A DNA stretch of 36,650 bases from Chrysochromulina tobinii. Lineage: Eukaryota > Haptophyta > Prymnesiales > Chrysochromulinaceae. This document shows positions 1-35,100 of the stretch, one piece after another. The notes under the pieces are model-generated. The model was not told the DNA's origin, made no database searches, and worked only from the letters and a program-made list of their open reading frames with translations. The first letter of the stretch is position 1. Each line of letters starts with the position of its first letter. Both the position numbers and the translations under genes were made by a program. The stretch covers positions 1-36,650 of the forward strand of contig JWZX01001800.1 in NCBI GenBank assembly GCA_001275005.1, written 5' to 3'.

Positions 1-1945
1 CCGGCATGGCGCCCGGCACGGGCGAGCCGGGCGCCGGGCCGGGCGCCGTCGGCGCGAGCAGCGACGCGCCCACGACGACGCCGACGAGGCCGCGGCGGCC
101 GCCGCGCACGGGCGTGAACGCAGCCGCCTTGGGCGCCGAAGAGGAGTTGCCTAATATGGACGATGACGACGGTTACGAGAGCTTCAAGACGGCGCTTCCT
201 AATATGGATGAGATCGACTCGATGCCTTCGAGCCCGGGGGCGTTCACACCGGCTGGGCAGCCGTTCACACCCGTGCGGCTGAGCTACGCGGAGCGCGCCG
301 TGCTCGCCTCGCGGCTGGACGGTCCGCAGGCGAACGCGCTGCTGCAGGAGGTGATTGCCACTGATGACCTCTTGATTGCCACTGATGACCTCTTGATTGC
401 CTCGCGGCTGGACGGTCCGCAGGCGAACGCGCTGCTGCAGGAGGTGCGTGAGTGCCACGGAGTGCCACTGAGTGCCACTGAGTGCCACGAATTGCCACGA
501 ATTGCCACTGATTACCTCTTGATTGCCTCCCTCATCAGGTGCAGCAGCGCATGGCGACCGTCGCGCTGCTCCAAGAGGCGCTGGTCAACTCGCTCATGCT
601 CAACGGACCGCTCGGCACGACGCTCGGCCTCGATGCGGACGATGGCGACGAGGAGAGCGGCGGCGGCGACGACGACGACGACGGGAGCGACGGCGAGGCG
701 CTCGATACGACGCTCGTTCGGCGGGGCGCCGAGTTGAGCGGGATCGCGCGCTCGGCTTACTCGCCACTGAAGGAATTGGAGGAGGAGCTGCCTAATTTGG
801 AAGGAGAGGAGTTTCCTAATTCGGTCGCACCGCCGGTCGGCGAGACGAAGACGATGACTCAGCGTCTTCATGAGCGGATCTTGAGCGGCGGACCTCCTTT
901 GCCTAATATGGATGAGCGAATCTTGAGCGGCGGGCCTCCTAATACGGTACCGCATGTCCAATACGGCGCTGCCCAATACGGCGCTGCGCAGCAGGCTGCT
1001 GAATCCCGCGCAGCGGCAGCCGAACGGCGTCCCCACGCGAATGAGGTGGCGGAGGGCGCCGTGATGGGCGGCGGCGCGGAGGCTGAGGGCGCCCTGATGG
1101 GCGCCGGCACGGAGGCGGCGGCGAAGGCGAAGGCGGAGGCGGCGGAGGCGGAGGCGGCACGCGTGGAGGCGCTCGAGACGGCGCGAGCCGCCCTCGCGCG
1201 CAGCGAGCAGCTTGAGGCGGAGGTACCCATGCCCGCCTCCAATGGCCTCTGATTGCCTCTGATTGCCTCTGATTGCCATCTGATTGCGTCCCTCATCAGG
1301 TGGCCTCTATCTGATTGCGTCCCTCATCAGGTGGCCATGCTTCGCTCCGCATACTCGATGGCGGCCTCGACGGCTTCCTCCGCCGCCGACGTGCTGCAAC
1401 TCGAGGCAGAGGTGGCTCTGCTACGCGCGGCAGGCTACGCGTACTCGCAGGCCCCCTCGCAGGCCGCCTCGCAGGCCGCCTCGCAGGCCGCCTCCCGCAG
1501 GCCATCATCTGATTCGGAGACGGCGGAGGCCGTGGCGCCCACGTCGGCGCCCTTGGACGCCGTACACGCCTACGCGCCCACCTCGGCGCCCGCCTTTGCG
1601 CCCGCCTATGCGCCCACCTCGGCGCCCGACTATGCCGAGACGGCGCCCCCCGACCCCCCTCCCGAAGTCCGCAAGTTCAAATCGGGCGCCGAAGCCGCGG
1701 CGGCGGCCCTCGCGGCAGCGAGATCGGGCGCCGCGCCGCTCGTCTCCGCCCCGGGCTCCGAAGTTTCGTTACTGCCGATCAAGTACAAGTCCGGGCGCGA
1801 GGCGGCGCTCGCAGCGCTCGCGGAGGCGCAGCGCAGGCGCGCGCCAGGCGAGACGCCCACTACGGCGCCGGGGGAGGCGCCCGTGACGGCGCCTGGTGAG
1901 GCGCCCGTGACGGCGCCAGCTGGGGAGCCGCCAAGCTTGATTTAG
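1..1945 (+). CDS. Ala-rich coiled-coil protein, 5' end possibly outside window
   Basis: Exons <1-350, 539-1222 and 1331-1945, both introns phase 0; stop TAG at 1943-1945. The frame is open to the left window edge. An ATG at 6 exists, so it is either the true start or an internal Met. I do not recognise a family. Visible features: an acidic N-terminal part with repeated LPNMD motifs, a Gly/Asp-rich acidic stretch, an Ala/Glu coiled coil from about 1110 to 1430 (AKAEAAEAEAARVEALETAR), Pro/Ala-rich TSAP repeats, then two copies of an FKSG/YKSGxEAAxAALAxA motif near 1672 and 1789, and a TAPGEAP tail. The reading across the second intron (EAE|VAMLRS) restores a continuous coiled coil, which supports the splice. 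The low-complexity composition suggests a scaffold or structural protein. Function unknown. Confidence 0.65.
351..538 (+). repeat. Family A introner-like intron with trapped exon copy
   Basis: GT at 351 and AG at 537-538, phase 0. The intron holds two TGATGACCTCTTGATTGCC units, then a second copy (about 398-443) of the preceding 46 bp of exon (301-350 region), then TGCCAC repeats ending in the CCTCATCAG acceptor. A second GT at 444 gives the same downstream join (LLQE|VQQRMATV). Unspliced, the first 93 bases stay in frame, so alternative isoforms are possible. Confidence 0.7.
1223..1330 (+). repeat. Family A introner-like intron, two units
   Basis: Donor GTACCCATG and final acceptor CCTCATCAG, phase 0. 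Two CTCATCAG modules occur, ending at about 1299 and 1330. The donor sequence GGTACCCATGC is a diverged copy of the downstream exon start GGTGGCCATGC. Confidence 0.75.
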
Positions 1946-2337
1946 CTGCCGCGAAGAGCGAGAGCAGGGGAGCCAAAGGTCGTGTCAAAAAGTCGCCGTC
2001 AGGCCCGTGTGGGGAAATCGAGTAGTCTGTCCAGAGCACGACCACCAACGGTGAGAAGCCCCGTTCAGCATGCCCGTCAGTCAGCAATCCGTCAGTCAAT
2101 CCGGGGAGGGAACGTGGGGCATGCCTGGCCATTAAATTGTTGAGCATGCTGTTCATGTCTCAGTCGATTGAATTTTGGACAGCATAAACAATTCGAAGTG
2201 GTCGGAATCCGACCCTATTAAATTACGCTTTACACGGAGGATCGAACATTATTTACAGTGCGCGTATAAAGTAACTGAAAACTCGTTAGATACTGCCGCC
2301 CTCAAAGAGTCCACTTTAGATTGCACCGGAGATTGTC
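1946..2337. other. Intergenic gap between convergent genes
   Basis: 392 bases between two gene 3' ends. It is AT-richer than its surroundings and has no coding signal, introner unit or clear hairpin. It presumably holds both 3' UTRs. No canonical AATAAA could be assigned with confidence. Confidence 0.5.
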
Positions 2338-5300
2338 TCAGGGCATTGCACGCCTCCGACGCTGCAGCGGCCTCGTCGCCGTCACCTCAAGCGCGACCTC
2401 CACCTTGCGCTTGCCACCCTTATTGCCACTTAGCATGGCGCCGCCCTCGCGCCTCGGAGGGGTGAGGGACACCTCGTCGCCGCGCAGCCAGATCACGTCG
2501 ACGGTGCTCGGCACGGTGCTCAGCAGCGCGCGCAGCCAGTCGTCGCGTCGCACGCTCCCGCGCCGCAAGCACGAGATATTGCACCCGTGCACAGGGCACA
2601 CACTGCTCCGCGCCTGGCACGACTGGTGGCGCCGACTCTCCTCGAGAGCCGTGAGGTTGCACCGGCTCAGATGCATGCAGCCCTCGAGCGTGGCGGGGTC
2701 GATCAGCCGCTGGTGCGAGAGTACGCACTGTAGCCTCAGCTGCTCCCACTCGACCTGCACCTCGAGCAGCGCCTCGTCCTCGTCCTCGTCCGACTCCATT
2801 GCCTGCGCCACGGCTGGTATCGCGCGCACCTCACGGCACTCCTCGTCCTCCTCCTCCTCCTCCTCGTCCTCGGTGGGCGTGAGCTCGAGCTTGACCTCGC
2901 CGTCCTCATCGTCGACCTCGCCATCGGGCTCGCCAACCTCGTCGTCCTCGTCGTCCTCGTCGTCTTCCTCGTCCTGCTCGTCGCTGCTCTCGTCGTTCTC
3001 GTCGCACTCATCGACATGCCCGGCGCCCTCAGCCTCTGCAGCCGCTTCGCCGCCGCGGGCCATGTGCTTTGCATATGCGACGGCGGCCTCGACGGCGGTG
3101 GCGAAGTATCCAAGAGAGACAAGTCGCTCATCACGCTTGTATCTGGCCTGGAAGGGCTTAGCTGGAGGCTGCCCTGATGAATAATTTGGAATGCGGTACA
3201 CGCTACGGTAGCCCGTGTTCGAGCGAGGTGAGAGATGCAGCCGGAGCCCCTCAGCCTCGGTGACCATGCCTGCTGCATCTGCCTCCCCGGCAGATTCGCC
3301 GTCGCGGGCCATGTGCCTGGCATACGCGACGGCGGCCTCGACGGCGGTGGCGAAGTATCCAAGAGAGACAAGTCGCTCATCACGCTCGTATTGGACCTGG
3401 AAGGGCTTAGCCCGAGGCTGCCCTGATGGATAATTTGGCATGCGGCGCACGCGAAGGTAGCCCGAGTTCGAGAGAGGTGAAAGATGCAGCCGGAGCCCCT
3501 CAGCCTCGGTGACCATCCCTGCTGCATCTGGCGTCAGTTCGACTCCATCCTCCTCCTCCTCCTCGCGTTCCTCGAGAGGCCCTTCTTCTTCTGCACCGCC
3601 CTCTTCGTCCCAAGCGCCGTCCCAAGCGCCGTCCCCAACGGCAGCCCGGCTGCGGCTTCGCTGCTTTGCAATCGCCACCTGCGACACCGGCTTGAGGCCT
3701 TCCAAGACGCGAGACGAAGGCCGCCGCTCGCGTGCACCTCTTACCAGCGTAGGAATTTGATGCAGGCCAGCATGCTTGTCCGGTAGGGTGCAGCCAAACG
3801 TACCACACTCGTCCCTGTCCTCGTCACTGTCCTCGTCCTCGCACTCATCACACTCATGCGCGACGTTGCTGGCGTGGACCGGAATGCCACGCGGCACTTG
3901 GTCCGCAGCGTCCTTGGCTGCGCCTTGTTCGCTCTGTGCCTCCTGCTCGTCGTCGTGCTCGACGCCCTCCGCCTCTGCAGCTGCTTCGCCGTCGTGGGCC
4001 ACGTGCATGGCATATGCGACGGCGGCCTCGACGGCGGTGGCGAAGTGTCCGAGAGAGACATTTCGCCCATCACGCCTGTATTGGACCTGGAAGGGCTTAG
4101 CCCGAGGCTGCCCTGATGGATTATTTGGCCTGCGGTGCACGCGTCGGTAGCCCGTGCTCGAGTTACGTGAGAGATGCAGCCGAAGCCCCTCAGCCTCAGT
4201 GACCATGCCTGCTGCATCTGCTTCCCGAGCTGCTTCGCCGTCGCGGGCTATGTGCCTTGCATACGCGACGGCGGCCTCGACGGCGGTGGTGAAGCATCCG
4301 AGAGAGACATGTCGCCCATCACGCTTGTATTTGGCCTGGAAGGGCTTAGCTGGAGGCTGCCCTGATGGATTATTTGGCAAGCGGATCACGTGAAGGTAGC
4401 CCGTGTTCGACTGAGGTGAGAGATGCAGCCGGAGCCCCTCAGCCTCGGTGACCATGTCTGCCCCAACCTCCGCCAGGTCACAAGCCTCCACGCCAGCGTC
4501 GCCCTCAGGTTCGAGAGACTCATCACGCTCAAGCGCGACGTTGCTGGCGTTGAACGGAATGCCGCGCGGCACTCGTTCCGCAGCGTCCTTGGCTGTGCCT
4601 TGTTCGCTCTGTGCCTCCTGCTCGTCGTCATGCCCGGCGCCCTCCGCCTCTGCTGCCGCTTCGCCGTCGCGGGCCATGTGCTTGGCATATGCGACGGCGG
4701 CCTCGATGGCGGTGGCGAAGCATCCGAGAGAGACACTTCGCCCATCACGCCTGTATTCGGCCCGGAAGGGCTTAGCCCGAGGCTGCCCTGATGGATCATT
4801 TGGCTCGCGGCGCACGCGAAGGTAGCCTGTGCTCGAGCGAGGAGAGAGATGCAGCCGAAGCCCCTCAGCCTCGGTGACCATCACTGCTCTTGCATCTGCC
4901 TCCCCAGCCTCAGCCTCTGCAGCCGCTTCGCCGTCGCGGGCCATGTGCTTTGCATACGCGACGGCGGCCTCGACGGCCGTGGCGAAGTATCCGAGAGACA
5001 CACTTCGCCCATCATGCCTGTATTCGGCCCGGAAGGGCTTAGCCCGAGGCTGCCCTGATGGATAATTTGGCTCGCGGCGCACGCTACGGTAGCCCGTGTT
5101 CGAGCGAGGTGAGAGATGCAGCCGGAGCCCCTCAGCCTCGGTGACCATGTCTCCCCCAACCTCCTCCTGGTCATCAGCCTCCACGCCGGCGTCACCCTCG
5201 GGTTCAAGAGACTCATCACGCTCAAGCGCGACGTTGCTGGCGTTGAACGGAATGCCGCGCGGCACTCGGCCCGCAGCGTCCTTGGCTGTGCCTTGTTCGC

Positions 5301-5748
5301 TCTGTGCCTCCTGCTCGTCGTCATGCCCGGCGCCCTCCGCCTTCCCAGCTAGGGTTAGCCCCAGCTGCCCTTCGCTTTCGCGGGCTATGTGCCTGGCATA
5401 CGCGACGGCGGCCTCGACGGCGGTCGCAAAGCATCCGAGAGAGACATCCCGCCCAGGCTCCAGCACACGCGTGTATCCGGCCTGGAAGGGCTTATCCCAG
5501 GGCTGCCCTGATGGATCATTATGACAATTTGGCCTGCGGAACACGCCAAGGTAGCCCGTGTTCGAGTGAGGTGAGAGATGCAGCCGGAGCCCCTCAGCCT
5601 CGGTGAGCACCATGTCTGCCCCAACCTCCTCCTGGTCATCAGCCTCCACGCCGGCGTCGCCCTCAGGTTCGAGATACTCATCACGCTCAAGCGCGACGTT
5701 GCTGGCGTGGACCGGAATGCCGCGCGGCACTCGTTCCGCAGCTTGCAT
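2338..5748 (-). CDS. Multi-AP2-repeat protein, seven AP2-like domains
   Basis: Single uninterrupted frame of 1136 aa from the ATG at 5748-5746. The frame extends upstream only to a TTG. It contains seven repeats of about 60-80 aa, each opening MVTEAEGLRLHLSP, followed by (S/N)TGYxxVxR, PSGQPxAKPFxAxY, a basic RDGRxVSLG and FATAVEAAVAYAxHxA. The last part matches the AP2/ERF core (strands plus EAA-AYA helix). Some repeats are separated by a duplicated acidic linker containing RVPRGIPFNASNVALERD. A CTFGCTLPDKHAGLH Cys/His motif lies between repeats 5 and 6, and after repeat 7 come a long Asp/Glu tract and a Cys/His-rich tail (CPVHGCNISC). AP2 domains bind DNA in plants and apicomplexans, so a nuclear DNA-binding role is inferred. 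It is unusual that the gene is intronless in an intron-rich region. Confidence 0.8.
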   Translation of the reverse strand: MQAAERVPRGIPVHASNVALERDEYLEPEGDAGVEADDQEEVGADMVLTEAEGLRLHLSPHSNTGYLGVFRRPNCHNDPSGQPWDKPFQAGYTRVLEPGRDVSLGCFATAVEAAVAYARHIARESEGQLGLTLAGKAEGAGHDDEQEAQSEQGTAKDAAGRVPRGIPFNASNVALERDESLEPEGDAGVEADDQEEVGGDMVTEAEGLRLHLSPRSNTGYRSVRREPNYPSGQPRAKPFRAEYRHDGRSVSLGYFATAVEAAVAYAKHMARDGEAAAEAEAGEADARAVMVTEAEGLRLHLSPRSSTGYLRVRREPNDPSGQPRAKPFRAEYRRDGRSVSLGCFATAIEAAVAYAKHMARDGEAAAEAEGAGHDDEQEAQSEQGTAKDAAERVPRGIPFNASNVALERDESLEPEGDAGVEACDLAEVGADMVTEAEGLRLHLSPQSNTGYLHVIRLPNNPSGQPPAKPFQAKYKRDGRHVSLGCFTTAVEAAVAYARHIARDGEAAREADAAGMVTEAEGLRLHLSRNSSTGYRRVHRRPNNPSGQPRAKPFQVQYRRDGRNVSLGHFATAVEAAVAYAMHVAHDGEAAAEAEGVEHDDEQEAQSEQGAAKDAADQVPRGIPVHASNVAHECDECEDEDSDEDRDECGTFGCTLPDKHAGLHQIPTLVRGARERRPSSRVLEGLKPVSQVAIAKQRSRSRAAVGDGAWDGAWDEEGGAEEEGPLEEREEEEEDGVELTPDAAGMVTEAEGLRLHLSPLSNSGYLRVRRMPNYPSGQPRAKPFQVQYERDERLVSLGYFATAVEAAVAYARHMARDGESAGEADAAGMVTEAEGLRLHLSPRSNTGYRSVYRIPNYSSGQPPAKPFQARYKRDERLVSLGYFATAVEAAVAYAKHMARGGEAAAEAEGAGHVDECDENDESSDEQDEEDDEDDEDDEVGEPDGEVDDEDGEVKLELTPTEDEEEEEEDEECREVRAIPAVAQAMESDEDEDEALLEVQVEWEQLRLQCVLSHQRLIDPATLEGCMHLSRCNLTALEESRRHQSCQARSSVCPVHGCNISCLRRGSVRRDDWLRALLSTVPSTVDVIWLRGDEVSLTPPRREGGAMLSGNKGGKRKVEVALEVTATRPLQRRRRAMP
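3040..5613 (-). repeat. Tandem AP2-coding repeat array (7 copies)
   Basis: Seven near-identical coding repeats with the shared signature CTCAGCCTCGGTGACCAT (plus strand) at each repeat start. Copy 1 (nearest 5613) is the most divergent and carries a short insertion before PSGQPWDK. Copies 2 and 3, 4 and 5, and 6 and 7 lie close together without the long linker, which suggests expansion by pairs. Confidence 0.8.
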
Positions 5749-5934
5749 GGCTGTTCCACGCGCTTTTCCCAAGTTTCACTCCACCATTCCTAATGCGACT
5801 GCATGCAACTAGTCGAGAATGAAGGAAAAACGAGTATATTCCAGCGCCGTACCGGTTTTTCGTCTTCCCGGTCCGGAGTTTGTGCGAATTTTGTGTTTCA
5901 CAGCTGCCCAGGCTTCGGCGAAGCTGCTGTGCCG
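5749..5934. promoter_or_regulatory. Divergent promoter region (inferred)
   Basis: About 187 bases separate the start of the minus-strand AP2-repeat gene from the likely GNAT start. The stretch is AT-richer than the flanking coding DNA. Two head-to-head genes this close must share a promoter region. No TATA box can be assigned. Confidence 0.35.
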
Positions 5935-6588: not shown

Positions 6589-6966
6589 CATAGCCGTCGT
6601 GACGAGCCTTGTGGGCCAAGCTGCGGACGAGAGAGGGACAATACACTGCTTAAAAACACACGTTACCCTCACCCAAACCGTACATGTGACTAGCTCAGAG
6701 TATAGTACAGCCGGTATAGTCGTTATACTTGTGGGGGCCGCACTTAGGAGGGTCGCAAACGAACCACCCGCCCTGCCAAGGGGGAGTTGGCAGTTGCGCG
6801 AGTTGCTTCTCTAGCCGCCAGATGAAGGTCGCCCGCCTCGTAAGGTACGGTCCGGTGAGACAAAAGAAAACTTTTCTACAGCCGGTACAGTGATACCCTA
6901 CCTTTTATCACAGACACTCTCAAGACTCCCCCCAAATCGTCATTCACACCGCACTTCACGGTATCC
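6589..6966. other. Intergenic gap, tandem plus-strand genes
   Basis: 378 bases with no coding signal. A short motif, ACAGCCGGTA(T/C)AG, occurs twice (about 6708 and 6876), possibly shared regulatory sequence for the downstream gene. Nothing else seen. Confidence 0.4.
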
Positions 6967-7998: not shown

Positions 7999-10900
7999 AT
8001 GGGCGCATGCGCGAGTAAGGAGCCGACTGATGCTAGTCCTGTGGATGTCCGACTGGACCCGGAACCACCAGCTCGAGCAGAGAGTCCGCCGCATCTGAAC
8101 GTCGAGTGGCCTCCAGGGACTGCGAGCACTTGCAAGCAACATCAGCACACCTCTGAGATGCTTGCGAGCGCTGCTCCGGTGGCCGCCAAAGGCGACGCTA
8201 GATGTACGAGCGCTACTCTGCCGTCGCTGAATTCAGCGGCTGATGAAGTCGAAACGCGAGCACCTGCAACTGCGCAGTCGCCTATTTCAGTGGCCGGCGC
8301 AGATGACGATGCAGGTGCAAGCCCTCCTCTGCCTCTGCTCGATCCGGCTGCCGAAGTCGATACGCTAGCAATTGCATCTCCATCGGCCACCGCAGACGAC
8401 GATCCATGTACAACCAACGCTGCTATGCCATCGCTCGATCCAGCAGCTGCCGAAGGCGAGACGCTAGCATCTCGAGACACTATGACTACGCCCACGAAAA
8501 GGAGCTCCAGTGGCAATCAGTCGCAATCAGAGGCCATCAGAGGCAATCAGTGGCAATCAGTGGCAATCAGCACGAAAAGGAGCTCCAGTGGCAATCAGTC
8601 GCAATCAGAGGCCATCAGTGGCCATCAGTGGCAATCAGTGGCAATCAGCACGAAAAGGAGCTCCAGTCAGTTCGCCAGTCCTAGGGTTTCCTTGGCTACT
8701 GCGCAAGTACCTATTCTAGCCACGGGCACCCGTGACTCCCAGCCCACGCCTCCCATGCGCACAAAGTGCTACTCGAAATCAGCCGCGGATTGGGCCGCGG
8801 CACGGGCGCAAACGCCCACACCGGAGATGAAGCTCGTCATCGAGACCGTGCCTGCAGCGTCGCCGCACACGCCGCCAGCTGCGGCTGCCAAGCCGCTGCC
8901 ACATCATCCATCCATCGTAGCGACGCGTGCCCCACCCGTGAGCAGCCCAGCTGCTGGGAGCGTGTGGAATGCCCCACCCGTGAGCAGCCCAGCTGCTGGG
9001 AGCGTGAGCAGCCCAGCTGCTGGGAGCGTGAGCAGCCCAGCTGCTGGGAGCGTGTGGAATGAGTTCCTGGAGGCGTCCGAGATGCAGCCGGCCATGGCTG
9101 CGATTGCGGCGCTGCGAGCTCACTTTGAGATTTCGGATCGAATCCGTGGCCTAGAGGTGATTGAGGCACTCATCACGCGGGCTGAAACGACCATGCCCGC
9201 TCGGGTGAAGGAGATGATGCGTGCCCTGGTGCGCCAGCTGATGGCCTCTGATGGCCTCTGATTGCAACTGATTGCCACTGAGTGCGTCCCTCATCAGGTG
9301 CGCCAGCTGATGGCCTCTGATGGCCTCTGATTGCGACTGATTGCCACTGAGTGCGTCCCTCATCAGGTGCGCCAGCGAGAGCGACGCAAGGCGGCGCCGC
9401 CCGCCGCGGGCAAGCCACCGCTCGTCGTCGTCATCAGTGGCGCGGGGCCTGTCGGCCTACGCTGCGCAGTCGAGTGCGCTCTCTATGGGATTGCCACTGA
9501 TTGCCACTGATTGCCACTGATTGCCACTGATTGCCACTGATTGCATCCCTCATCAGGTGCGCTCTCTATGGGATTGCCTCTGATTGCCACTGATTGCCAC
9601 TGATTGCCACTGATTGCATCCCTCATCAGGTGCGCTCTCTATGGGATGAGTGTTACCGTGATCGAGCTACGCCTCACCTTTAGCCGCGTCAACATCCTCA
9701 CGCTCTGGCCGCAGACGGCGGACGACCTCATGGGTCTTGGAGCCAAACTCTTCTACCCCAAGTTCACCAACCATGGCGACCTGCTGCACATGGGCACGCG
9801 AGAGATCCAGTTGGCGCTCTTTAAGACGGGATTGCTCCTCGGGATCCGTTTCCTGAACGGGGCGGAGCTCGTCGCCGTGCAGGCCCCCACACGCAATATT
9901 GGTTCGAAGACGCACTGGCTGGCATGGGCGCGTGACAAGACCGCCGGGCAGCAGCACATACGGGCAGCCGCCACGCCCCCAGCCCCGCCCATCCCTAGTA
10001 TGGATCGATCCATCCACTCGAGCCTTTCCATATTAGGGACGAGCGCCGATGTGGTCGAGGCGGCAGGTCACCAGCCCGGCGCTGATGGCCTCTGATGGCC
10101 TCTGATTGCGTCCGATGGCGTCTGATTGCCACTGATTGCGTCCCTCATCAGGTCAACAGCTCAGCGCCCGTGATGGCGCCCGTGCGTCCCCGGGCACCTC
10201 CGCTGAGCAGTTGGCGCCCTTGCCCAGCAAGCTCAAGCTCCCACAGCAAGCTCCCACAGCAAGCTCCCACAGCAAGCTCAAAATCCCACAGCTCTTTCAG
10301 GACTCGCAGCCGCTCGTCACTCCCGTCGACCCTCGTACAGCCGCTTTGGCACGCGCTGCCACGGGCGCCTTGTCACGCGCCGATCAGCGCTCGCGCCAAC
10401 CCGCCGCCAAACCTCCGTCGATGGGCAGCTGTGCGAGCAGTCACATCGCGACCAGCGGTTGTGGTGGCAGTGGGCGCGCGCATGGCGTCGCGAGTGGCAA
10501 CGCGCTCGACTCGACTCTCGACCCACGCCTCAAGGCCGCCCTCGACTCGACGCTCGACCCACGCCTCAAGGCCGCCCTCGACTTCAAAGAGGACAAGACT
10601 GCCACGTACACGCGCGGCGCGCTACAGGGAGTGTGCAACACGATGGCGATGGCCGAGGTGATGCGCGGCTTTGTGCTGCCGGGTGCCTCCCATCCTCCAG
10701 ACGACGTGCGCCGGCTGCACTTTGACGAACCTCGTGATTGCGATGGATTGCGATGGATTGCGACTGATTGCCTCCCTCATCAGGTGCGACGGTTACACTT
10801 TGATGCTCTCGTGATTGCCGAGGGCGAATGGAGTACGACCTGCAGCCTGCTGGGCATCACCAAAGCGGTCGACAAGTTTGCCACCGCCATCGGCCTCATA

Positions 10901-14215: not shown

Positions 14216-14318
14216 TGTACATTGTACCGTACAATCATCTTCCTCCTTCTCTTGTCGTTCGGAGCTGACCTTTTCGCTCAACTCGAAGAAGCGTTGTCGG
14301 TTGCCGGGTTGGATAGCG

Positions 14319-18665: not shown

Positions 18666-19264
18666 ACGCGGCGATTTCGTCAATTCCGATACCACGCGAA
18701 CGCTTGAAACCGTCTGCCCGTCATGCGGGCGGGGATGTGATCATTATGCCGGGGATGTCTCTACAGTTGCTTCACAGTGCCCACGACTGCTCCGCTCGTC
18801 CACTCATACTTATAAACCGTTTTAAACCCGTTACCACGTAGCAACATGTGTCGAATACGGGCGCCTATGTATTGAAAATGCAAACATTAATAATAATATA
18901 ATGCTGTTTCGCAAGCGTGACGGCGGTCGCCGGTCGGCCGTGCGTGCTGTGCGTGAGTGTGCTGTGTGGTGTGTGCGGTGCGGACTGGTTGAGACGTCTT
19001 GAACCATTACACCAGGCGTCCGTCCCGGGTCGTCAATTATTATATTGTTTGGAATTTATACTTATCCAACTAGATCCTACCGTGAATGTTATTACTGTGA
19101 GTGTGTCCTCCATTACATTTCATTACAGTCCTCCAGAGACAGTCCACAGGTATCAGGTTCCCCTGCTCCTTACCTCCTTTGCGTACACGTTCGACCTTGG
19201 AGCTCAGGGTCATGGCATATTGGGCATAATGATTGCGCTTTTTGGGGTGGATCTGGCGGACCAT
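18666..19264. other. Intergenic gap between convergent genes
   Basis: 599 bases with an AT-rich patch at about 18885-18901 (TTAATAATAATATAAT) that could hold a polyadenylation signal for the upstream gene. No gene, introner or strong hairpin seen. Confidence 0.45.
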
Positions 19265-25549: not shown

Positions 25550-27479
25550 TTACAGTACACATCCTCCTTCACCTTTGACCTTGCGAAGTTCCCAATCGAA
25601 TCCCTCGGCCTCGGCGCGCTGCTCGGCGCACTGATAGCCGAGCACAGTGGCGACCAGCGCCACCTTCGTGGGGCTTCGTCGGGATGGTGTGGCGAGACGC
25701 TTGGCGTGAGCGCGCCATTCCTTGACGCTCCCATTGCCTAATTTGGGTGGCGGCGGGCGAGTGCTCGGGAGGACGCGCCCTTCCTCTACGCTCATCGCGT
25801 CGCCCATGGCGTCCACCCATCGGGCGGCAAATTGGGTTACGTCAATTGAGACGCTCATCACGGCGCCCATTGAGTCCACCCGTCCGGCGGCACGTTGTGC
25901 TACCGGTACGTCCCTCTCGTCCTCCTCCGCTGCTCGGCCACTCGCGCTGATGACGGAGCTCATCATGGACTCGAGGACGCTCAAGGCATGCAGCTCGCAG
26001 GGCAGACGCGCCACCGCTTGACGAAGCTCCGCCACGGTCGCCGTCCGGCACGGCCCCAGTTTTGATGGGTGCGCCCACACCTGTGGGGAGCGGTGAGGGC
26101 GCCGTGGTGAGCGCTTGCATGCGCGCCAAGGCACACACCAAGTTTGGGTGGGTGCGCCCACACCCAACGAGGGCCAGTCTGGAGGCGCTCGCTATCGGTA
26201 CGCGCCGTCCTGGGCGAGCCAGCCCGACCCACTTCGAAGCGGAAACGCGCGTCCAGCGCCGTGCCGAGCGCTTGCATGTCTGCCTTCTCCTCGGCAGTGC
26301 CCTGCGGAGCGAGATGGCAATCAGTGGCCATCAGTGGCCATCAGTGGCCATCAGTGGCCATCAGTGGCCATCAATGGCAATCAGTGGCAATCAGTGGCAA
26401 TCAGTGACCACCGCCAGCGGTTATCAGCGCGGCAATTCAGTGACATTCACCTGTGGAGCGAGGCGGGAAAAGGGGACGACCGTCCGCGTGAGCGTTGGCT
26501 GCTCGATCACCTGTGGGGAGAAGTGATGGCGTCGTGGTGAGCACTTGCATGCACACCCGAGCGTTGGCTGCTCACACCAGGAGGCTGCGCGCATCGCAGG
26601 CCTCCTCCAGCTGTGGGGAGAGGTGAGGGCGCGCGCGCCGTGGTGAGCACGTGCATGCACACCAGGAGACTGCGCGTGTCGGAGGCCTCCTCTAGGCAAA
26701 GCTCTCGCGCTCCGAATGCCTCGTCGCCCGCCTCGCCCGCCTCGCCCGCCTCGCCCGCCTCGCCCGCCTCGCCCGCGGCGACGTGCCGTCGGATGGCACG
26801 GATGGCGACCAGTGCGAAGCGATTGGACGATCCAGCGCACCTGTGGGGAAAGGGCGCCATAGTGAGCACTTGCATGCACTCGAAAGCACGAGCGCGAAGC
26901 GATTGGAGGATCCAGCGCACCTGTGGGGAAAGGGCGCCATAGTGAGCACTTGCATGCACTCCAAAGCACGAGCGCGAAGCGATTGGACGAGCCAGCGCAC
27001 AAGCTCGCGAACATGGCCCGAGCGCCGCGTACGAATGCGTCGCGGCTCTCCTCGCCAGGAGCGGCGTCGGTTTGCAAGTGGAGGTACAGGACCTGGGCGT
27101 CGGCGTCGTCCAGCAAGCGCCGAAGCCGATCGGCGGCGCTGTGAAGGCGCGCAAAGTCTCCATCATGCACGGCCGGATCGTGATGGCGAAAGATGTGCGC
27201 GTGCTCCTTGGTGCGGTAACGCAGGTGCCCACCATGGCGCTCACGTCGAGGCGTTGGAGCGGAGCCGCTCACGTCGGGGCCTGCGTCGACGCTGTGCAGC
27301 TCGCGCCGATTGAGCAAGGTCGCACATCGATCTTCCAAGCACGCGCTGACCATCTCGGGCGTGGAATGGATCCAGTCGAACGGCAGCGCGAAGGAGGTGT
27401 GGCCGCGAGCTCTCAAAAACTCCGCGCCATGGCACGACGGCCCGAGGCTGCAGCAGTGCGTGATCGTGGAAATCAACAT
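25550..27479 (-). CDS. DUF1796-type papain-like cysteine peptidase
   Basis: Six exons: 27479-27001, 26840-26663, 26610-26578, 26510-26451, 26301-26164, 26080-25550, 1419 nt in total (472 aa). Start is ATG 27479; the open frame runs 12 codons further only to a GTG. The N-terminus has the DUF1796 signature: CCSLGPSCHGAEFLRARG (Cys nucleophile candidate), SFALPFDWIHSTPEMV, later IFRHHDPAVHDGDF (candidate His) and QVLYLHLQTD. The middle has an (AGE)n stretch, EAGEAGEAGEAGEAGDEAF. The C-terminal third (TATVAELRQAVARL, FDWELRKVKGEGGC) is unrecognised. Family members are predicted peptidases found in bacteria, algae and giant viruses. Substrate unknown. Exon 3 (33 bp) repeats the last 11 codons of exon 2. 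Confidence 0.75.
26081..26163 (-). repeat. Family B intron
   Basis: Phase 0. Starts with the exon copy GTGTGGGCGCACCCACC, repeated after the acceptor as GTGTGGGCGCACCCATC. The body ends CCGCTCCCCACAG. Confidence 0.8.
26302..26450 (-). repeat. TGATGGCCAC-type family A intron
   Basis: Phase 0. Donor GTGAATGTCACTG, body of (TGATTGCCAC)n and (TGATGGCCAC)n, acceptor TCTCGCTCCGCAG, which is a copy of the upstream exon end TCGCTCCACAG. Confidence 0.75.
26511..26577 (-). repeat. Family B intron
   Basis: Phase 0. GTGTGAGCAGCCAACGCTCG precedes the block and is echoed after the acceptor as GAGCAGCCAACGCTCACG. Ends CTTCTCCCCACAG. Confidence 0.75.
26611..26662 (-). repeat. Minimal family B intron (52 bp)
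   Basis: Phase 0, with its own GTGTGCATGCACGTGCTC start and CTCTCCCCACAG end. No GT lies in the flanking exon copy, so both splice sites appear to be the element's own and the duplicated exon (LEEASDTRSLL / LEEACDARSLL) stays in the mRNA. Confidence 0.65.
26841..27000 (-). repeat. Family B intron, two 80-bp tandem units
   Basis: Phase 2. Units 26841-26920 and 26921-27000 are almost identical; each is an exon copy (GTGCGCTGGATCCTCCAATC) plus a family B block ending CCTTTCCCCACAG. Join FAS(TT|G)CAGSSNRFALV. Confidence 0.85.
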
Positions 27480-27770
27480 CGCGAAAGATTCGCGTTCTGT
27501 CGGTGTGAAGGACACGTGTGAAGAACCACTTCAAGTTGAACGAGGGTGCGCCAAGCGCGGGCACGCGACGGGCAGACGGGAGTCGGACTTAACGGGGTAG
27601 GTGTGGACGATTACAAAAGTTCAAACAATAATTTCAGACTGTAAATACACTCTACAGTATTGGTGCGCATGCTGCACCTCAAGCCCGAGACGTGGCATGA
27701 GCGCGCAGGATGAAACGTAGGTTACATAGACAGCAGCTCGTTGCCGTGCAGGCATTCTTGTGCTCACGCG
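27480..27770. other. Short intergenic gap
   Basis: 291 bases between two minus-strand genes, the right half AT-rich (TTACAAAAGTTCAAACAATAA). Expected promoter of the peptidase gene and 3' UTR of the filamin-type gene. Nothing else seen. Confidence 0.4.
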
Positions 27771-29097
27771 TCACGGCCCATGCTCTTGTTGTGCAGATTC
27801 GGGCGGGTTCACTTTCTCTTTGCTTTGTCGGCGTACTTGCCGGCCCTCGGCAGGACCCTCCGCCTGCTGCTTCCATATCTTGGCAGTCGCAGCCGCGGCC
27901 GCATCCTGAATGAGCGCCGTCACGGCGGCTTCCGGCGCGACCTCGGCCTTCATCTCGGCCTTTATCTCGGCCTTCATCTCGGCCATGGTCGGCTCGCGCA
28001 CCTGCAGGTTCACAGTGGGCAGCTCGACATTCTCCGATTAGTCAATGACAGCGCTCATCAGTGAACACACAGTCGCGCACCTGCAGGTTCACAGTGGGCA
28101 GCTCGACGTTCTCCAGACGCGCTTGCATTCGGTAGTCGCCCGGGACCGACGCGCTAAAGTTGATCGCATACGAGCCGTCGCCGCGGTCGATGACCTGATG
28201 AGGGAGGCAGGGATTGTGCACTCAGAGACGCAATCAGAGACGCAATCAGAGACGCAATCAGAGACGCAATCAGATTGCATACGAGCCATCGCCGCGGTCG
28301 ATCACCTGGCAATCCGAAGCCTTCGGTCATCAGCGGTCATCAGCGGTCATCAGTGTTCATCAGTGGTCATCAGTGGTCATCAGTGGTCATCACCTGGCAA
28401 TCCGAGGCCTTCGGGCCAAAGACTTTGGCCTCGAGCCGACTGCCGCCCACGTCGACGTTGTTGTTGAACCGGTCGACGAGCTGCACGAGGACCTCGCAAG
28501 GCTGGCCCGTCGAGGGAGCCCCCCCCCCGAGGCTCGTGGCTGGGAAGAGCTTTGACTTGGGCGCGAAGGGTGGGCCGGGGCGCACGATGAACTCCATCGG
28601 GGAGCCTGTGAAGATGGGGTGTGAAGATGGGTGTGAAGATGGGTGTGGAGATGGGATGGGGATGCCCGTTGAGCATGCACTCGGACGCAATCAGTATGCA
28701 CTCGGAAGCAATCAGCATGCATTCGGTGGTCATCAGTGGCCATCAGTGGTCATCAGTGGCAATCAGTTGGCAATCACCTGTGATGGGGTGCCCGTTGAGC
28801 TTGATCGTGGCCGAGTAAGTTCCCTTGAGGGTGAGCTCCGAGCTCGAGCTGAACTCGTGCGCACCTGTGGGGAGGCGAGGGCGCCGTGGTGAGCACATGC
28901 ATGCGGGCAGGTGGAGGGTGAGCTCCGAGCTCGAGCTGAACACGAGCGCACCGACGACCTCGGCCTGGCGCACGACCATCAGGGCTCATCAGTCGCAATC
29001 AGTGCTCATCAGTCGCAATCAGGGCGCACCGACGACCTCGGCCTGGCGCACGACCGCCGCGGACTTGCGAGCGTTCGCACCGCCGCCGCCGCCGCCT

Positions 29098-29135
<38 letters not shown>

Positions 29136-32100
29136 CTCGCCCTGTGCCGAGCCTCGGTCGCCCAACACGGCGCCCACATTGGCCCTCAGCTGCATCGGAT
29201 GCTCGCCGTCCGGCGCATGCAAGATCGTCTTGAGCTCCGATTCCACAGCCTTGAGCGTCGCCTGTGGGGATGCGGGGGCGCCGTAGTGAGCACGTGCATG
29301 CTGGCTGAGAGGGGATGTGCATCGGGACGGCTCGGCCTTCAGGGTCAGGGCGCCGTGGTGAGCACATGCATGCTGGCTGAGAGGGGATGTGCATCGGGAC
29401 GGCTTTGGCCTTCAGGGTCACCTGATTGCTATACTCATCAGTGGTCATCAGTGGTCATCAGGGGTCACCTGATTGCCATACTTATCAGTGGTCATCAGTG
29501 GTCATCAGTGGTCATCAGTGGTCATCAGTGGTCATCAGGGGTCATCAGGGGTCACCTGATTGCCATACTCATCACGCATCTGCACACGCAGCAGCAGCCG
29601 CTCGCCCGCTGGGTGCTCTGTGATCGCGTCGCGCAAGAAAGACGATGCGGCCGTTGGTCGGCCAGGGTCGACATGCACTGCAAACGGGCAGCCCGGTAGG
29701 AAGATGCGCGTCAGGATCGCCTCGCCTCGCCTTGCCTCGCCGCCGCCGTCGACAACGGCTGCCTTGGCGGCAACGGCCGCCTCATGCTCCGCGTTGGCTT
29801 TGGCGCCCGCCGAGTGCTTGCCTGATGAGGGACGCAATCAGTTTCAATCAGTGGCAATCAGAGGTGCAATCAGAGGTGCAATCACTGCGCATGCAAAGTG
29901 CTTGCCTTCTCCGACGTGCTTCACGGCTGCCTCAAGCTTCTTCTTCTCTTCTGGACTGACGTGCACGTCCGTCCACATGTAGAGCTCGTAATCTCCCGAG
30001 CTGTGAGGCTCATAGCTCACCTGTGGGGAAGGGACGGCGCCGTGGTGAGCACATGCATGCAAGGCAGGGGCTCGTAATCTCCCGAGCTGTGAGGCTCTTA
30101 GCTGACCGCGATCGTGGAGCCCTGCCATGAGCTGTGATACTGCAACGTCTGCATCGCGCGCACGAACGCGTTGCGCTCCGCCTGGTTCATCAGACGCAAT
30201 TCGTGGCAATTAGTAGGGCGCTCAATCGCAATCGGTGGCACTCCGTCGCACTCAGTGGCATTCAGTGGCATTCAGTGGTACTTAGTGGCACTCAGTCGTA
30301 CTCCGTGGCACTCAGCGGCACTCAGTGGCACGCACCTGCTTCATCAGGCTCGGCGCCTTCTTGTTCGGATCCGCATCGGTGTGTGCCTCCGTCTCCCCCT
30401 TGAGCTTCAACGGCTTCTTGCCTGTGGGGAAGGGACGGCGCCGTGTTGAGCACGTGCATGCAAGGCAGGGGCCCATCATCTCCCTCGAGCTTCAACGGCT
30501 TCTTGCCTTCGTTCGATGGAGTCTCGACGATGAGGGACGCCATCAGTGGCAATCAGAGGTGCAATCACAGCGCCCGCCGAGTGCTTGCCTTCGTTCGATG
30601 GAGTCTCGACGAGACCGAACCCAAACTTGAGCGACGACTGCGTCGACGGCACCGCCGAGTTGCCAAACGCATCTCGACAGATGATCTCGAGGCGCATCAT
30701 TTCCCCACAGGCCGCGCTGCGCAGCCCGCCGACACCAGTCTTGCCCTTCCAGAGCACCTCGCACCGCGCCACGTCGGGCGCCGCCGAGAGGACCGTTACG
30801 GCCGTTGGAGAGCCGCGCACCTGTGGAACAGGCCAGGCGCGCCGTGGTGAGCACTTGCATGCAAGGCGGGGCTGTTGGAGAGCCGCGCACGGGGGCGTCG
30901 TTGATGGTCACTAGGAGAGAGTACTCGCCCGCGACCTTGCCCTTCCATGAGATCTCGTAGCTCCCGTTGCGCAGATCGCTGATTTGGGGCACGGGTGCGG
31001 TCTCCTCCGGCGTGATGCGCACCTGATGAGGGAGGCAATCAGCATGCAATTCAGATCGCTGATTTGGGGCACGGGCGCGGTCTCCTCCGGCGTGATGCGC
31101 ACCTGATGAGGGAGGCAATCAGCATGCAATTCAGAGCTGGTCAAGGTTCGTCAGGTGAGCTCCATCGGGGCCTGCCTCCGTGATATGCCCCTCTGATTGC
31201 ATGCTGATTGCCTCCCTCATCAGGTGAGCTACTCCATCGGGGCCTCCGTGATATGCCCCTCTGATTGCATGCTGATTGCCTCCCTCATCAGGTGAGCTAC
31301 TCCATCGGGGCCTCCGTGATATGCCCCTCTGATTGCATGCTGATTGCCTCCCTCATCAGGTGAGCTACTCCATCGGGGCCTCCGTGATATGCCCCTCTGA
31401 TTGCATGCACCTTGATGTCCGCGCCGCCTTCGACGCCCATCATCAGTGGCAATCAACGCACATCATCAGTGGCAATCAACGCACCTTGATGTCCGCGCCG
31501 CCTTCGACGCACAGGTTGCCCATGTTGTCGCACAGCCGAAGCACAAAGGCGCCCCGGTTGCCCGCCACGCTGCTCAACGGCAGCTGCTCGGACGGCATCA
31601 AGGTCGTCGGGGCGTGCGCAGGGCCGGGCTTCACGTGGAGTGTGAAAGGCGAGCCTGGGAGGCGCGGGCGCCGTGGTGAGCACATGCATGCGCTCGGCCC
31701 GTTCGGGTTCAGTGTGAAAGGCGAACCTGGGAGGCTTGCGGACTGTTGACGAAGCCCCACGTGGAGCTTGTACGTGCCGGCCGCCCCGATGGAGTAGCTC
31801 ACCTGATGAACCTTGACCAGCTCGCCGTGTGCATGCAACCTGCCCGGGAAGATGCCCCCGAATGCAAACGCGATGCCGCGGGCATCAGCCGCGAGCTCAT
31901 ACGAGAAGCTCGGACCGACCTGTGGGGAAGAGGCGGGGGCGCCGTGGTGAGCGCTTGCATGCTGAGGCTCATACGAGAAGCTCGGACCGACCAGACGCTC
32001 AGCCAATTCCACAGCGCTTGGAGCCAACCCACTGAGCAGCTGGCTCGCTAGGCTACTCGTCGCCACGCCGCTGTGATTATTCACGCCAAGCGCCCCAGCT

Positions 32101-35100
32101 GCCTTGTAAGGCGCGACGCTCTCATCCAGATGGACGCCAGCACCGCTGTTAGCCTTGAGCGCCTTTTCGAACGCCTTGTCGGCGGCGAGCCGCTTATTCC
32201 ACAGCTCAAGCTGCAATCGGCGCTCATTAGCGTCGACCTTGGCGTGCTGGCGCGCGAGCCGCTCCTTGCCGCCCTTTTGGACCGCGGTCACCCATCCGCG
32301 TACCTGATGAAAGAGGCAATCGGTGGCAATCAGAGGCAATCACATCCCCTACTTGGACCGCGGTCATCCATCCCGCGTACCTGGATGAAAGAGGCAATAA
32401 TTGGCAATCAGTGGCAATCACATCCCCTACTTGGACCGCGGTCATCCATCCCGCGTACCAGCGTCCCGTCCGGCAATCATTGGCAATCAGTGGCAATCAT
32501 TGGCAATCAGTGGCAATCAGTGGCATCATCCATCCAGCGTACCAGCGTCCCGTCCGGTAGGGTCGCTCCCTCGACAACATACTGCACCTTAACACCAGTC
32601 GCCACAAGCACCTGTGCAGCAGGCATGGCGCCGTGGTGAGCACGTGCATGCACCATGGCGTGCGCCGTGGTGAGCACTTGCATGCACCTCAGCTCGCGTG
32701 CCGCCGTCGGCCGCTTGCTCTCGCCGCAGCTGCTTGAGGAGCGCGCCGGGTAGCACCTGATGAGGGAGGCAATCCGCATGCAATCGGAGGTGCAATCTCA
32801 GAGGAACGAGCCGGCAATCACCATGGCCAACTCGGCATTCACTGGCAATCAGTGGCCATCAGTGGCAATCAGTGGAAATCAATGGCAATCAGTGAAGATC
32901 AATAAAAAATCACCTTGGCCAACTCGGCGCTCTCGGTACTCAGAGCCTCGCGAAGGATGAGCGGCTTGGTGCCCACGACGGCGCGCGCCGTGCCGAGCCG
33001 TTCCCACAGCGCCGTGTCGGCGCTCTCCATCAGCCATGGGGTGGACGAGACCGGAATCGCCACGTCATCCGGATCGGCGCTGTCGCCCCCCACTTCCAAA
33101 TCGGGCAAGTTTGGCAAGTTTGGCAAGTTTGGCAAGTGGCTCCCAAAGGAGCTCGCGCCCACCACGGCGCTACCGCCACCGCCCTTGGCCCCCGCCTTGC
33201 CCCCCGCCCTGCCCACCCCCTCCTTGGCGCCCACCACGACGCCCGGCGTTGCCCTTGCCGTTGGGCGATTTGTTACCGGCCGGCCCGACGTCGGGCGCCG
33301 TGGTGGGCGGCGCCGTGGTGGGCGGCGGCAGCGACTTGGCGGGTGCGGGGGGGGGAAGCGACTTGGACGTGACCGGCGCCGTGCTGGGCGACGATGGAGG
33401 AGATGCGATCTCGATCTCGTCGGCGAGCAGCTGCGGCCTCGCTGAGGGCAAAATCTCAAGCGGCTCCACGTGCACGTCGAGCTCCTCCGCGTACGCGACC
33501 TGATGAGGGAGGCAATCCGCATGCAATCAGAGGTGCAATCTCGGTCGCATCTCGGTGCCTCCGGCGTGATGCGCACCTGGCCCAGATTGTCGACGAACTC
33601 AATGGCAATCAGTGGCAATCAGTGGCCATCAGTGGCAATCAATGGCACGCACCTGGCCCAGATTGTCGACGAACTCAATGTCGAACGACATCGGTTGGCG
33701 CGCGACTGCATGCTTGAGTGCGTCGCCGCGCAGCAGGCATCGGGAGGGCTCCGCCTTGAGTGTCACCTGTGGGGAGGCGAGGGCGCCGTAGTGAGCACTT
33801 GCATGCCGCGCAGCGGGGATGTGCATCGGGCCCTTCACAGCCGATGCAATGACGCCGTGATGGGCACATGCATGCTTGGAGAGGGGATGTGCATCGGGGC
33901 CTTGAGTGTCATCGCATCGGCTGTGGAGGGAGCTGTGAAGGGGCTGTGCAGGGGCTGTGCAGGGGCTGTGAAGTGAGCGTCACCGCATCAGCTGTGAAGG
34001 GGCTGCCCGAGATCGCGATCCCATCGCACGAGATCGAAATCTCGAGCTGGCCTGAGACCTCGGGCTTGTAGGTCACCTGTGGGGAGGGGAGTGGGGAGGG
34101 CGCCGTGGTGAGCACTTGCATGCACACTCGAGGTGGCCCGAGACTTTGGGCTTGTAGGTCACCGTGTAGCAGCCGTTGTCGTGGTCCAGGACCTTGGCAT
34201 GTAATTTCTGCGGGTTGGGGCGCACCCCGCGCACCTGTGGAACAGGCAGGGCGCGCCGTGCTGAGCGCTTGCATGCAAGGCGGGGCCATCCGTGTGGGGC
34301 GCACGCCGCGGCAATCAGTGGCCATCAACGCACCTTGACCACAAACGGGTCGCCGCCGGTGGTTCGTCAATCAGTGGTTCGTCAATCAGTGGTTCGTCAA
34401 CGCACCTTGACCACAAACGGGTCGCCGCCGGTGGTTCGTCGATTGCCATCGCCATCATGGGCCGTGATGACAAACTGCGCGGCCTGATTGACCAATGCCC
34501 ACTGCAAGCCGCGCCCATCGCACTTGCACTTGCTCGCGAGCGCTCGCGACGGCGCTTGCGGCACTGTGGGGTCCTTTGACGGATCCGGCAGCACCGTCGC
34601 CGCCGGCGCTCGCTCCACTGCGACGGGCTCCAAGACCGCCTCCTTCTTCTTCTTCTTCTTCTCATCGGCGCGCTCACCACGGCGCCCTTTCGTATCGGCC
34701 GGTTCGCTCGCTTTGGGCTTCTCGGCCGCCGCCGGCGCCCTGGCCGTGATGAGCTCAAACGCGAGCTCGGACGGCCTGTGGAATCCGCCGTGATTGCTCG
34801 GGCACTTGAAGAAATAACGGTCGCCGATTCGGCCGTTGCACGTGCCCACGGGTTCGTCGAACTGGATGCCGCACCAGACCCCCTGGCCCAGCGTCGGGAT
34901 CGTCCCCACGAACTGCACGACGCCGTGCTTGTCGCCCACGCGGCAACGGTCGCCCTGCCGGTAGGTCGGTATTCGGGTGTTTGGCGGCTCGACGGCCACC
35001 GGCGGGCTCAACTCTTGAGAGTCGGCTCGCCGGTGCTTCGCATGGGGCTTCTTGTCCGTCGAGCCGGATGCCTCGGGTCCTGGCGCGGCCGCGGCAATGT

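Follow-up and report, generated by a model that had tools for sequence, protein, structure and literature searches.

Introner-like inserts flanked by long exon duplications in the haptophyte Chrysochromulina tobinii

Direct duplications of exon sequence flank many of the repeated inserts found in genes of Chrysochromulina tobinii, with a median length of 27 bp for one family of inserts (A) and 38 bp for another (B), and this long target duplication is the most distinctive feature of the introns concerned. We propose that the inserts are probably introners of unusual make: short, non-autonomous cassettes put in at staggered nicks or breaks, with the target duplicated by fill-in. The bulk origin of introns has long been a puzzle, and most published introners have been interpreted as DNA transposons whose duplications are short. 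This genome, in which the modules are present in hundreds of copies and many recent-looking inserts lie between perfect duplicates of 20–50 bp, offers material for a direct test of the insertion mechanism. Here we analyse a stretch of 36,650 nucleotides (contig JWZX01001800.1 of assembly GCA_001275005.1), termed the window, and take copy numbers from the whole assembly (53.15 Mb, 2253 contigs).

Two families of repeated inserts

Family A consists of 10-bp units in tandem arrays, with the end module TGATTGCCTCCCTCATCAG. Exact copies of this module number 879 in the assembly (438 on the plus strand and 441 on the minus strand), far above chance, compared with 0 copies of the same pattern read backwards. 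The module is followed directly by GT in 590 of the 879 copies, by GC in 120 and by neither in 169. Family B elements are single-copy cassettes, about 42 bp long and bounded by GCATGCAAGTGCTCACCACGGCGCC and CCCCACAG; the core of the cassette is present in 668 exact copies. A preliminary description of this DNA had called the units minisatellites, which holds for family A and not for family B. The ends of the B cassette are nearly fixed on both sides, and inspection by eye found no terminal inverted repeat between them. Family A inserts have ragged ends: the 5′ end in acceptor mode, in which the insert would supply the 3′ splice site, and the opposite end in donor mode, in which it would supply the 5′ splice site. 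Within a single gene, sister B copies have extra 5′ bases in common, and tandem copies of entire duplicate-plus-insert units are also present. Only 22 exact copies exist of the donor string AGGTGCGCTGATTGCC, so donor mode does not represent one fixed module. Two unrelated acceptor cassettes and a donor type are found in one genome.

Both families are mostly located inside genes. The window holds 11 exact copies of TGATTGCCTCCCTCATCAG and 26 of CYTCATCAG, and A or B motifs occur in five predicted genes (3–1945 and 7999–12646 on the plus strand; 19240–21418, 25578–27483 and 27774–35258 on the minus strand). Similar sequence is shared by the introns of unrelated genes, as A or B is also present in predicted HSP90, DnaJ, RFC1 and other genes. 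The window contains 212 unit matches; with gene limits that are rough calls, 181 of these are sense to the host gene, 29 are antisense and 2 are intergenic, against about 29 intergenic matches expected by length (5034 intergenic bases). Matches in the window are thus enriched in genes, and the pattern that would count against an introner system, with copies scattered evenly across intergenic DNA and in either orientation, is not seen there. Two antisense copies persist as in-frame coding repeats (8493–8667 and 15348–15449).

These data confirm the earlier report of A and B elements in five unrelated genes, with tandem arrays of 10-bp units and an acceptor module; the flanking exon duplications had escaped it. 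The introner-like system that it proposed also stands in part, on the strength of the same modules in unrelated genes, their mostly genic and sense placement in the window, and an exact removal that matches HSP90 and DnaJ proteins, although not quite as it was described. Its figure of about 40 of 44 introns built from repeats was not reproduced: our crude models contain 51 introns across the five genes, and candidates were limited to element motifs or element-type acceptors, so that the intron fraction is not readable from these models. At least one ordinary intron is visible by eye in a minus-strand gene (about 24.53–24.65 kb). The models of 27774–35258 and 7999–12646 each keep two internal stops. 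The window also encodes an LRR protein with four close proteins (52–99% identity), and Rfam at gathering thresholds gave no matches in it. The HSP90 exon is 96% identical to that of Calcidiscus leptoporus.

Flanking duplications and splicing

In a survey of 197 kb, 184 element-bearing spacers were found between duplicates of at least 12 bp. Exact GT–AG excision is possible in 88 of these and GC–AG excision in 17, other dinucleotide pairs are possible in 2–43, and 79 allow neither GT–AG nor GC–AG. The median duplicate length for 86 GT–AG events is 27 bp, and A duplicates range from 12 bp, the chosen cut-off, to 59 bp. A duplicate is anchored at the A acceptor in 48 of 102 cases, compared with 3.4% with swapped flanks, and the duplicates of 24 of 35 B elements (21–47 bp) lie above the 99th percentile of swapped flanks; the remaining 54 A acceptor sites and 11 B elements show no significant duplicate. 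Duplicate lengths differ between the families (46 A acceptor-mode versus 24 B; Mann–Whitney p = 6.5e-5), perhaps owing to selection on total intron length. Overlaps of at least 3 nt are found at the ragged end of 9 of 38 A inserts, against about 1.2 expected, and the far end of the duplicates shows no clear base preference. We discarded a duplicate scan based on any GT..AG pair, as self-matches of the arrays swamped it and TG..GA and other pairs gave even more hits; the scans that replaced it left out element-like duplicates. Among 102 events with one splice solution, 46 have duplicates that are 100% identical, and recent activity of the system, which the preliminary description had called active or recently active, is plausible.

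In the acceptor type, which is the common one, the cassette would bring the AG, along with a putative branch site and pyrimidine tract, and no 5′ splice site. The GT with which the first target duplicate begins would act as donor, the intron would comprise this duplicate plus the cassette, and splicing would give back the old mRNA. The exon before this GT often does not end in AG, so that a duplicate by itself would not be spliced. The donor type is the mirror image: the insert would start at or beside the GT and the acceptor would be the AG that ends the second duplicate; in some such cases AG|GT sits inside the duplicate.

Both types are represented on the plus strand of the window. The donor-mode A intron at 351–443 has a 45-bp array between 48-bp exon duplicates (306–353 and 399–446) that are 100% identical, with its GT 3 nt before the end of the first duplicate and its AG within the second. 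The acceptor-mode A intron at 444–538 ends in the exact module and has no clear duplicate. Two tandem A introns (9229–9297 and 9298–9366) have the 10-bp duplicate GTGCGCCAGC in common, another tandem pair (9474–9556 and 9557–9629), within a predicted FAD/NAD-binding motif, has the 18-bp duplicate GTGCGCTCTCTATGGGAT, and the acceptor-mode A intron at 10706–10783 has a decayed duplicate (17 of 20 positions identical).

On the minus strand, the A introns at 19815–19892 (a member of a tandem pair) and 31023–31102 have duplicates identical at 34 of 34 and 50 of 51 positions, and the A inserts at 31411–31484 and 33577–33652 have duplicates of 30 bp and 33 bp with, near the right end, their own AG|GT and CAG|GTGCG, respectively. 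B introns on this strand have duplicates of about 25 bp (19648–19717), 43 bp (the tandem introns 26841–26920 and 26921–27000), 40 bp (28865–28951), 44 bp (30021–30106) and 39 bp (30422–30506, with GC–AG ends). The duplicate at 30821–30890 is identical at 20 of 21 positions and that at 31920–31991 at 25 of 25; at 26081–26163 it has decayed, with an anchored alignment of about 39 bp and an ungapped one of 17 bp. A filamin repeat contains a B intron with a duplicate of about 37 bp (34077–34162) and two adjacent predicted introns, one with a B end (34235–34333) and one with A units (34334–34405).

Exact splicing of the inserts is well supported at the protein level, where their predicted removal restores the coding sequence. 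Reading frames agree across 55 of 85 removed introns (p = 3e-9); the agreement weakens when the flanks are extended to 150 nt (42 of 85, p = 0.0016) and is not significant for GC–AG events (8 of 16 at 60 nt). Removal of the predicted introns restores the whole filamin repeat (89.8 bits, versus 23.3 and 27.1 for the unspliced pieces), and the RFC1 alignment continues across predicted junctions. After intron removal, HSP90 and DnaJ match uninterrupted JGI proteins at 706 of 706 and 258 of 258 residues, support that could stem from intron-free gene copies. The HSP90 intron has no recognised flanking duplicate. The DnaJ site (L017) was rejected as a clean donor-mode case: the A insert alone gives no GT–AG, and only a composite of A and B inserts is excised.

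Origin of the inserts

The length and variability of the duplications speak for insertion at staggered nicks or breaks rather than for a classical transposase. We infer a movement of the cassettes that involves nicks, fill-in, a template and selection. A nick or break would have a stagger of tens of nucleotides, and filling in the staggered ends would produce the target duplication. As a working route, synthesis might be primed from the staggered nick with an existing intron, as RNA or DNA, for template. Selection would retain sense copies that are in register, which act as introns, and a small number of antisense copies, which are read in frame as coding repeats. The variable duplicates and the ragged 5′ ends of family A in acceptor mode fit the pattern of target-primed reverse transcription; set beside that pattern, the 5′ end of B is nearly fixed, and in donor mode it is the opposite end of the inserts that is ragged. 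No enzyme for cassette movement was found. There are 26 RVT_1 matches, and the one examined, on contig L046, is LTR-type; this contig has no copy of TGATTGCC on either strand, nor of CTCATCAG on its plus strand.

More tentatively, it may be half-introns that move: cassettes made up of hardly more than a branch site and an acceptor, or of a donor and an array, would spread by nick-and-fill with staggers of tens of nucleotides, perhaps from excised intron RNA, and would form a distinct repair- or RNA-based class of introner. If so, almost any exon GT (or AG) could turn into a splice site, and the class would differ from transposase-driven introners and tend to escape the published screen.

The same introns could have arisen without a dedicated mobile element, if accidental double-strand breaks with staggered ends were repaired and template switching brought in filler from introns close by; A and B would simply be fillers that splice well. 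Variable duplicate lengths, ragged array ends, junction overlaps at A inserts, the extra 5′ bases common to sister B copies in one gene and an inverted copy of neighbouring exon sequence (31155–31408, by eye) are all consistent with this account, and the available text of a study of Daphnia neointrons describes staggered-break footprints of 4–12 bp (PMC4202315). Two cassettes nevertheless recur hundreds of times genome-wide, and the B ends are nearly fixed on both sides, more than expected of accidental filler, which leaves such repair a doubtful, if serious, candidate. Most published introners are read as DNA-transposon derived, according to the sections available of PMC9860276, yet non-autonomous, classical cut-and-paste transposons with target duplications are improbable here, given duplicate lengths that range over 12 (the cut-off) to 59 bp in A and over 21–47 bp in B, ragged A inserts and, by eye, no terminal inverted repeat between the B cassette ends.

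It is very improbable that the introns were made by tandem duplication of AGGT-holding exon pieces in which minisatellites grew later. Such an origin would suit the duplicates with AG|GT around the 31411–31484 and 33577–33652 inserts and the tandem copies of whole duplicate-plus-insert units, but insert sequence is common to unrelated genes and to 879 (A) and 668 (B) genomic copies, and for B the shared cassette refutes it. We give hardly any credence to the reading of the inserts as repeats in coding or non-coding DNA, or as assembly artefacts: the antisense copies at 8493–8667 and 15348–15449 do read as coding repeats and internal stops remain in some gene models, but frame restoration, the restored filamin repeat and the letter-for-letter protein matches for HSP90 and DnaJ all speak for introns.

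Comparison with known intron-forming systems

One model of intron gain invokes tandem genomic duplication of an AGGT-bearing exon. There, as in the staggered insertion that we favour, an exon duplicate gives splice sites; here, however, a foreign repeated insert lies between the duplicates and in many cases contributes one of the splice sites, so that the intron is not duplicated exon only. Target duplications of published introners are quoted as 3–9 bp, and the short duplications of the DNA-transposon type contrast with the medians of 27 bp (A) and 38 bp (B) in this genome.

In the available text of Gozashti et al. 2022 (PMC9860276), introners of Symbiodinium microadriaticum leave the mRNA unchanged, as here, but have 4-bp duplications and terminal inverted repeats, against 12–59 bp (A) and 21–47 bp (B) and no inverted repeats by eye in our case. 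Those of Chrysochromulina sp., also a haptophyte, are given 4-bp duplications, a comparison by description rather than by sequence (PMC9860276). The same text reports that insertion in Aureococcus sp. can add codons to the mRNA, which resembles an apparent case in the window (26573–26692), although an 8-bp duplication and 12 added bp there compare with about 33 bp here, by eye (PMC9860276). The screen as outlined there demands similarity from near both splice boundaries and no low complexity (PMC9860276); the 5′ part of an acceptor-mode intron is a locus-specific duplicate and family A is an array, so the screen would be expected to miss these introns, which suggests that screens needing both-end similarity and rejecting low complexity may undercount introners.

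Daphnia neointrons share with the present inserts direct repeats at exon ends, ascribed to staggered breaks, but the repeats are 4–12 bp long and, in the passages available, the inserts are not portrayed as one recurrent splice-signal cassette (PMC4202315). The introner elements of Amoebophrya likewise combine direct repeats at exon–intron borders with many repeated introns in a protist, and differ, in the portion of the report at hand, in their 3–5-nt direct repeats, 8–20-nt inverted repeats and mostly non-canonical splice sites (PMC7789003). Long copies of the landing site, often 20 to 45 bp, set the inserts of C. tobinii apart from the intron-making elements in the literature examined.

Target duplications and the two element families

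Exon sequence adjoining the element introns recurs on the other side of the insert, and the distinctive fact of this system is that a half-intron cassette obtains one of its splice sites from a long target duplication. Two families of cassette are involved. Family A consists of arrays of 10-bp units closed by an end module, and family B of a single cassette (median length 42 bp) with ends of roughly GCATGCA and CCCCACAG; the preliminary description had proposed minisatellite units, which holds for family A and fails for family B. An exact-motif search of the whole assembly (53.15 Mb, 2253 contigs) found 438 forward and 441 reverse copies of the A module TGATTGCCTCCCTCATCAG, no copy of this pattern read backwards, 154 additional copies of a variant whose eighth base is G and 668 copies of the B core GTGCTCACCACGGCGCC. 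A core match is not always a whole cassette, as the acceptor end is missing from those in two other stretches of the assembly (L038 and L040). The dinucleotide following the 879 A modules is GT in 590, GC in 120 and another in 169; directly 3′ of 35 B elements it is GT in 27, GC in 4, GA in 3 and CT in 1.

Duplications were surveyed in 197 kb, comprising the window and stretches L010–L029, a non-random sample picked for contigs holding the A module, often in several copies. We counted element-bearing spacers with flanking duplicates of at least 12 bp (our cut-off) that were not themselves element-like. Among 184 such spacers, an exact GT–AG intron was possible in 88, a GC–AG intron in 17 and neither in 79; eight other dinucleotide pairs, used as a control, gave 2, 8, 16, 20, 27, 29, 32 and 43. 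In the 86 GT–AG events with a single solution, the duplicate had a median length of 27 bp (5th–95th percentile, 15–50), and the AG|GT point lay at most 3 nt from its left end in 43 and at most 6 nt from its right end in 24, leaving 19 inside it versus 54 expected if uniform. When the comparison was started from the first base beyond the A acceptor, a duplicate scoring at least 9 was present at 48 of 102 sites, versus 3.4% with flanks swapped between sites, and absent at 54. For family B, 24 of 35 elements had a duplicate above the 99th percentile of swapped flanks, 21–47 bp long (median 38).

Intron architecture and evidence for splicing

The insert and the duplicate divide the splice sites between them in two main ways. 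In 46 family A events, termed acceptor mode, the intron is the first duplicate plus the insert, the duplicate beginning with GT and the insert ending with AG; the exon bases ahead of the GT are often other than AG (for example, TTCGAT, CTTTTT and CCAAAC), and the acceptor is therefore supplied by the insert. In 33 others, termed donor mode, the insert begins at or near the GT and the second duplicate ends with AG, and in nine more the splice point falls well within the duplicate. The A units contain CTGAT and the B cassette CTCAC, both of which fit the usual branch-site consensus; judged by sequence, the cassettes may therefore act as movable modules that bring a branch site together with an acceptor.

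Both families meet in a DnaJ gene (stretch L017), where two inserts share one point, ATCGAGAAGG|GTATGCC. The A insert, whose 22-bp duplicate spans the point, is not GT–AG alone; the duplicate of the B insert, about 46 bp by eye, begins at the point; and the stretch removed is the composite 1346–1501. At 11938–11991 of the window, (GTGAAT)9 directly follows CAG and precedes about 20 bp repeated from the upstream exon (GGAGCCGTTTTGGCCGCAG); by eye, this is an intron built in the same way around a different type of array. A single intron site in an RFC1 gene (L027, 5628–5892) carries five tandem 53-nt duplicate-plus-insert units, which are introners expanding in place.

Four lines of evidence support splicing. 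Best coding frames on both sides were compared across the removed intron, using flanks of 60–150 nt; they agreed in 55 of 85 GT–AG events at 60 nt (P = 3e-9), 49 at 90, 47 at 120 and 42 at 150 (P = 0.0016). Agreement in GC–AG events (8 of 16 at 60 nt) was not significant. In a filamin-like gene of the window, removal of the predicted introns 34077–34162, 34235–34333 and 34334–34405 yields one complete repeat (profile positions 4–93 of 93) scoring 89.8 bits, compared with 23.3 and 27.1 bits for the pieces before splicing. The hand-edited RFC1 model of L027, from which 14 introns were removed (13 with duplicates), aligns with human RFC1 (6vvo_A, E = 7e-52) and yeast RFC1 (1sxj_A, E = 2e-37). Its junctions SAK|VKS and VANE|GYK are gap-free against both; at DGK|VGG small gaps occur in both alignments a few residues from the junction, and at GNADQ|VKRL two additional residues are present in the human chain and none in the yeast chain.

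The strongest line comes from protein matches. Spliced HSP90 of stretch L030 is identical to the database protein P0049 over 706 residues, and the L017 DnaJ, after removal of 453–706, 870–1278, 1346–1501 and 1750–1888, is found letter for letter within the 330-residue P0165. Both proteins derive from JGI data; their contigs are no longer than 3264 and 2464 bases, respectively, as would be expected of metatranscriptome contigs, but the proteins may instead be encoded by intron-free gene copies. The HSP90 exon is 96% identical to a Calcidiscus leptoporus protein (90% of the query covered) and 95% identical to Emiliania huxleyi proteins; the DnaJ is 74% identical to a Coccolithus braarudii protein and 76% to one of Chrysotila carterae. 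These matches identify the source as a haptophyte allied to the coccolithophores. The HSP90 intron (L030, 1397–1502) is a chimera of A-type units joined to a B cassette, in which no duplicate was recognised. Another JGI/ENA protein, P0045, is identical in the HSP90 exon and differs in its translation of the upstream intron, so this intron may vary between strains.

The introner interpretation stands, and the earlier count of 40 of 44 introns built from repeats was not reproduced. Our gene models for the window are rough: those of 27774–35258 and 7999–12646 each retain two internal stops, and that of an aldo/keto reductase shows only partial matches to its family.

Orientation, age and insertion

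Unit matches in the window (n = 212) are mostly sense to the host gene (181), with 29 antisense and 2 intergenic. In the gene at 27774–35258, 10 of 13 antisense matches sit in one rearranged array (31194–31398). In the surrounding 31155–31408 of this minus-strand gene, a 68-bp unit bearing plus-strand A modules is repeated three and a half times; by eye, exon sequence from around 31750–31820 seems to recur in inverted orientation in its flank. An antisense A array at 8493–8667 of a plus-strand gene, present as two insertions flanked by a 19-bp repeat and with a 78-bp period, is seemingly read as an in-frame 26-residue repeat and not spliced. An antisense B core (15422–15437) lies inside a 48-bp in-frame repeat (15348–15449) of an open LRR/kinase-like frame. 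At the sense B insertion 26573–26692 the duplicate seems, by eye, to be retained in the mRNA, adding about 11 codons (product LEEASDTRSLL-LEEACDARSLL). These few antisense and retained cases suggest insertion without regard to orientation, with the outcome left to selection. Tandem repeats of 249-bp and 267-bp period are also present in coding sequence at 3046–5148, in a long open minus-strand frame (2341–5775).

The duplicates are identical in 46 of 102 events and at least 95% identical in 74. Three of the 102 introns are shorter than 60 nt, 68 measure 60–100 nt and 31 are longer. In single A introns (n = 40), the duplicate tends to be shorter where the insert is longer (Spearman −0.37, P = 0.019), and the two lengths add up to a less variable total than they do after shuffling (P = 0.009), which fits selection on intron length.

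The length of the duplicates and its variability speak against insertion by a classical transposase. On the simplest reading, staggered nicks with fill-in would produce the duplicates; the data accommodate either target-primed synthesis or break repair with template switching. Overlaps of at least 3 nt at the ragged end of A inserts, judged by extrapolating the 10-bp period, occur in 9 of 38 versus about 1.2 in shuffles, and are compatible with target-primed synthesis and template switching alike. Of 26 reverse-transcriptase matches, the single one examined as a possible partner enzyme is of LTR type; its open frame (stretch L046, 710–6001) encodes the reverse transcriptase, RNase H and a DNA_pol_A_exo1 domain.

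Comparison with published introners

Among the titles and abstract openings listed for introner papers, none mentions introners with duplicates this long or made of minisatellites, and no literature linking introners with coccolithophores was found. In the extracts consulted, Gozashti et al. (2022) quote duplications of 3–9 bp, with examples of 4 and 8 bp, and describe a screen that required similarity near both intron ends and dropped low-complexity families (PMC9860276); the similarity requirement would probably exclude acceptor-mode introns, and the complexity filter family A. Corresponding extracts describe 4–12-bp repeats attributed to staggered breaks at Daphnia neointrons (PMC4202315), direct repeats of 3–5 nt and inverted repeats of 8–20 nt at Amoebophrya introners (PMC7789003) and, for Micromonas, a spread of intron copies taken as favouring reverse splicing (PMC3879977). 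Among these partial accounts, the nearest is a survey of 213 introns with direct repeats of 4–30 bp (mean 11.4) near splice sites, a range that overlaps the duplicates described here (PMC11782384).
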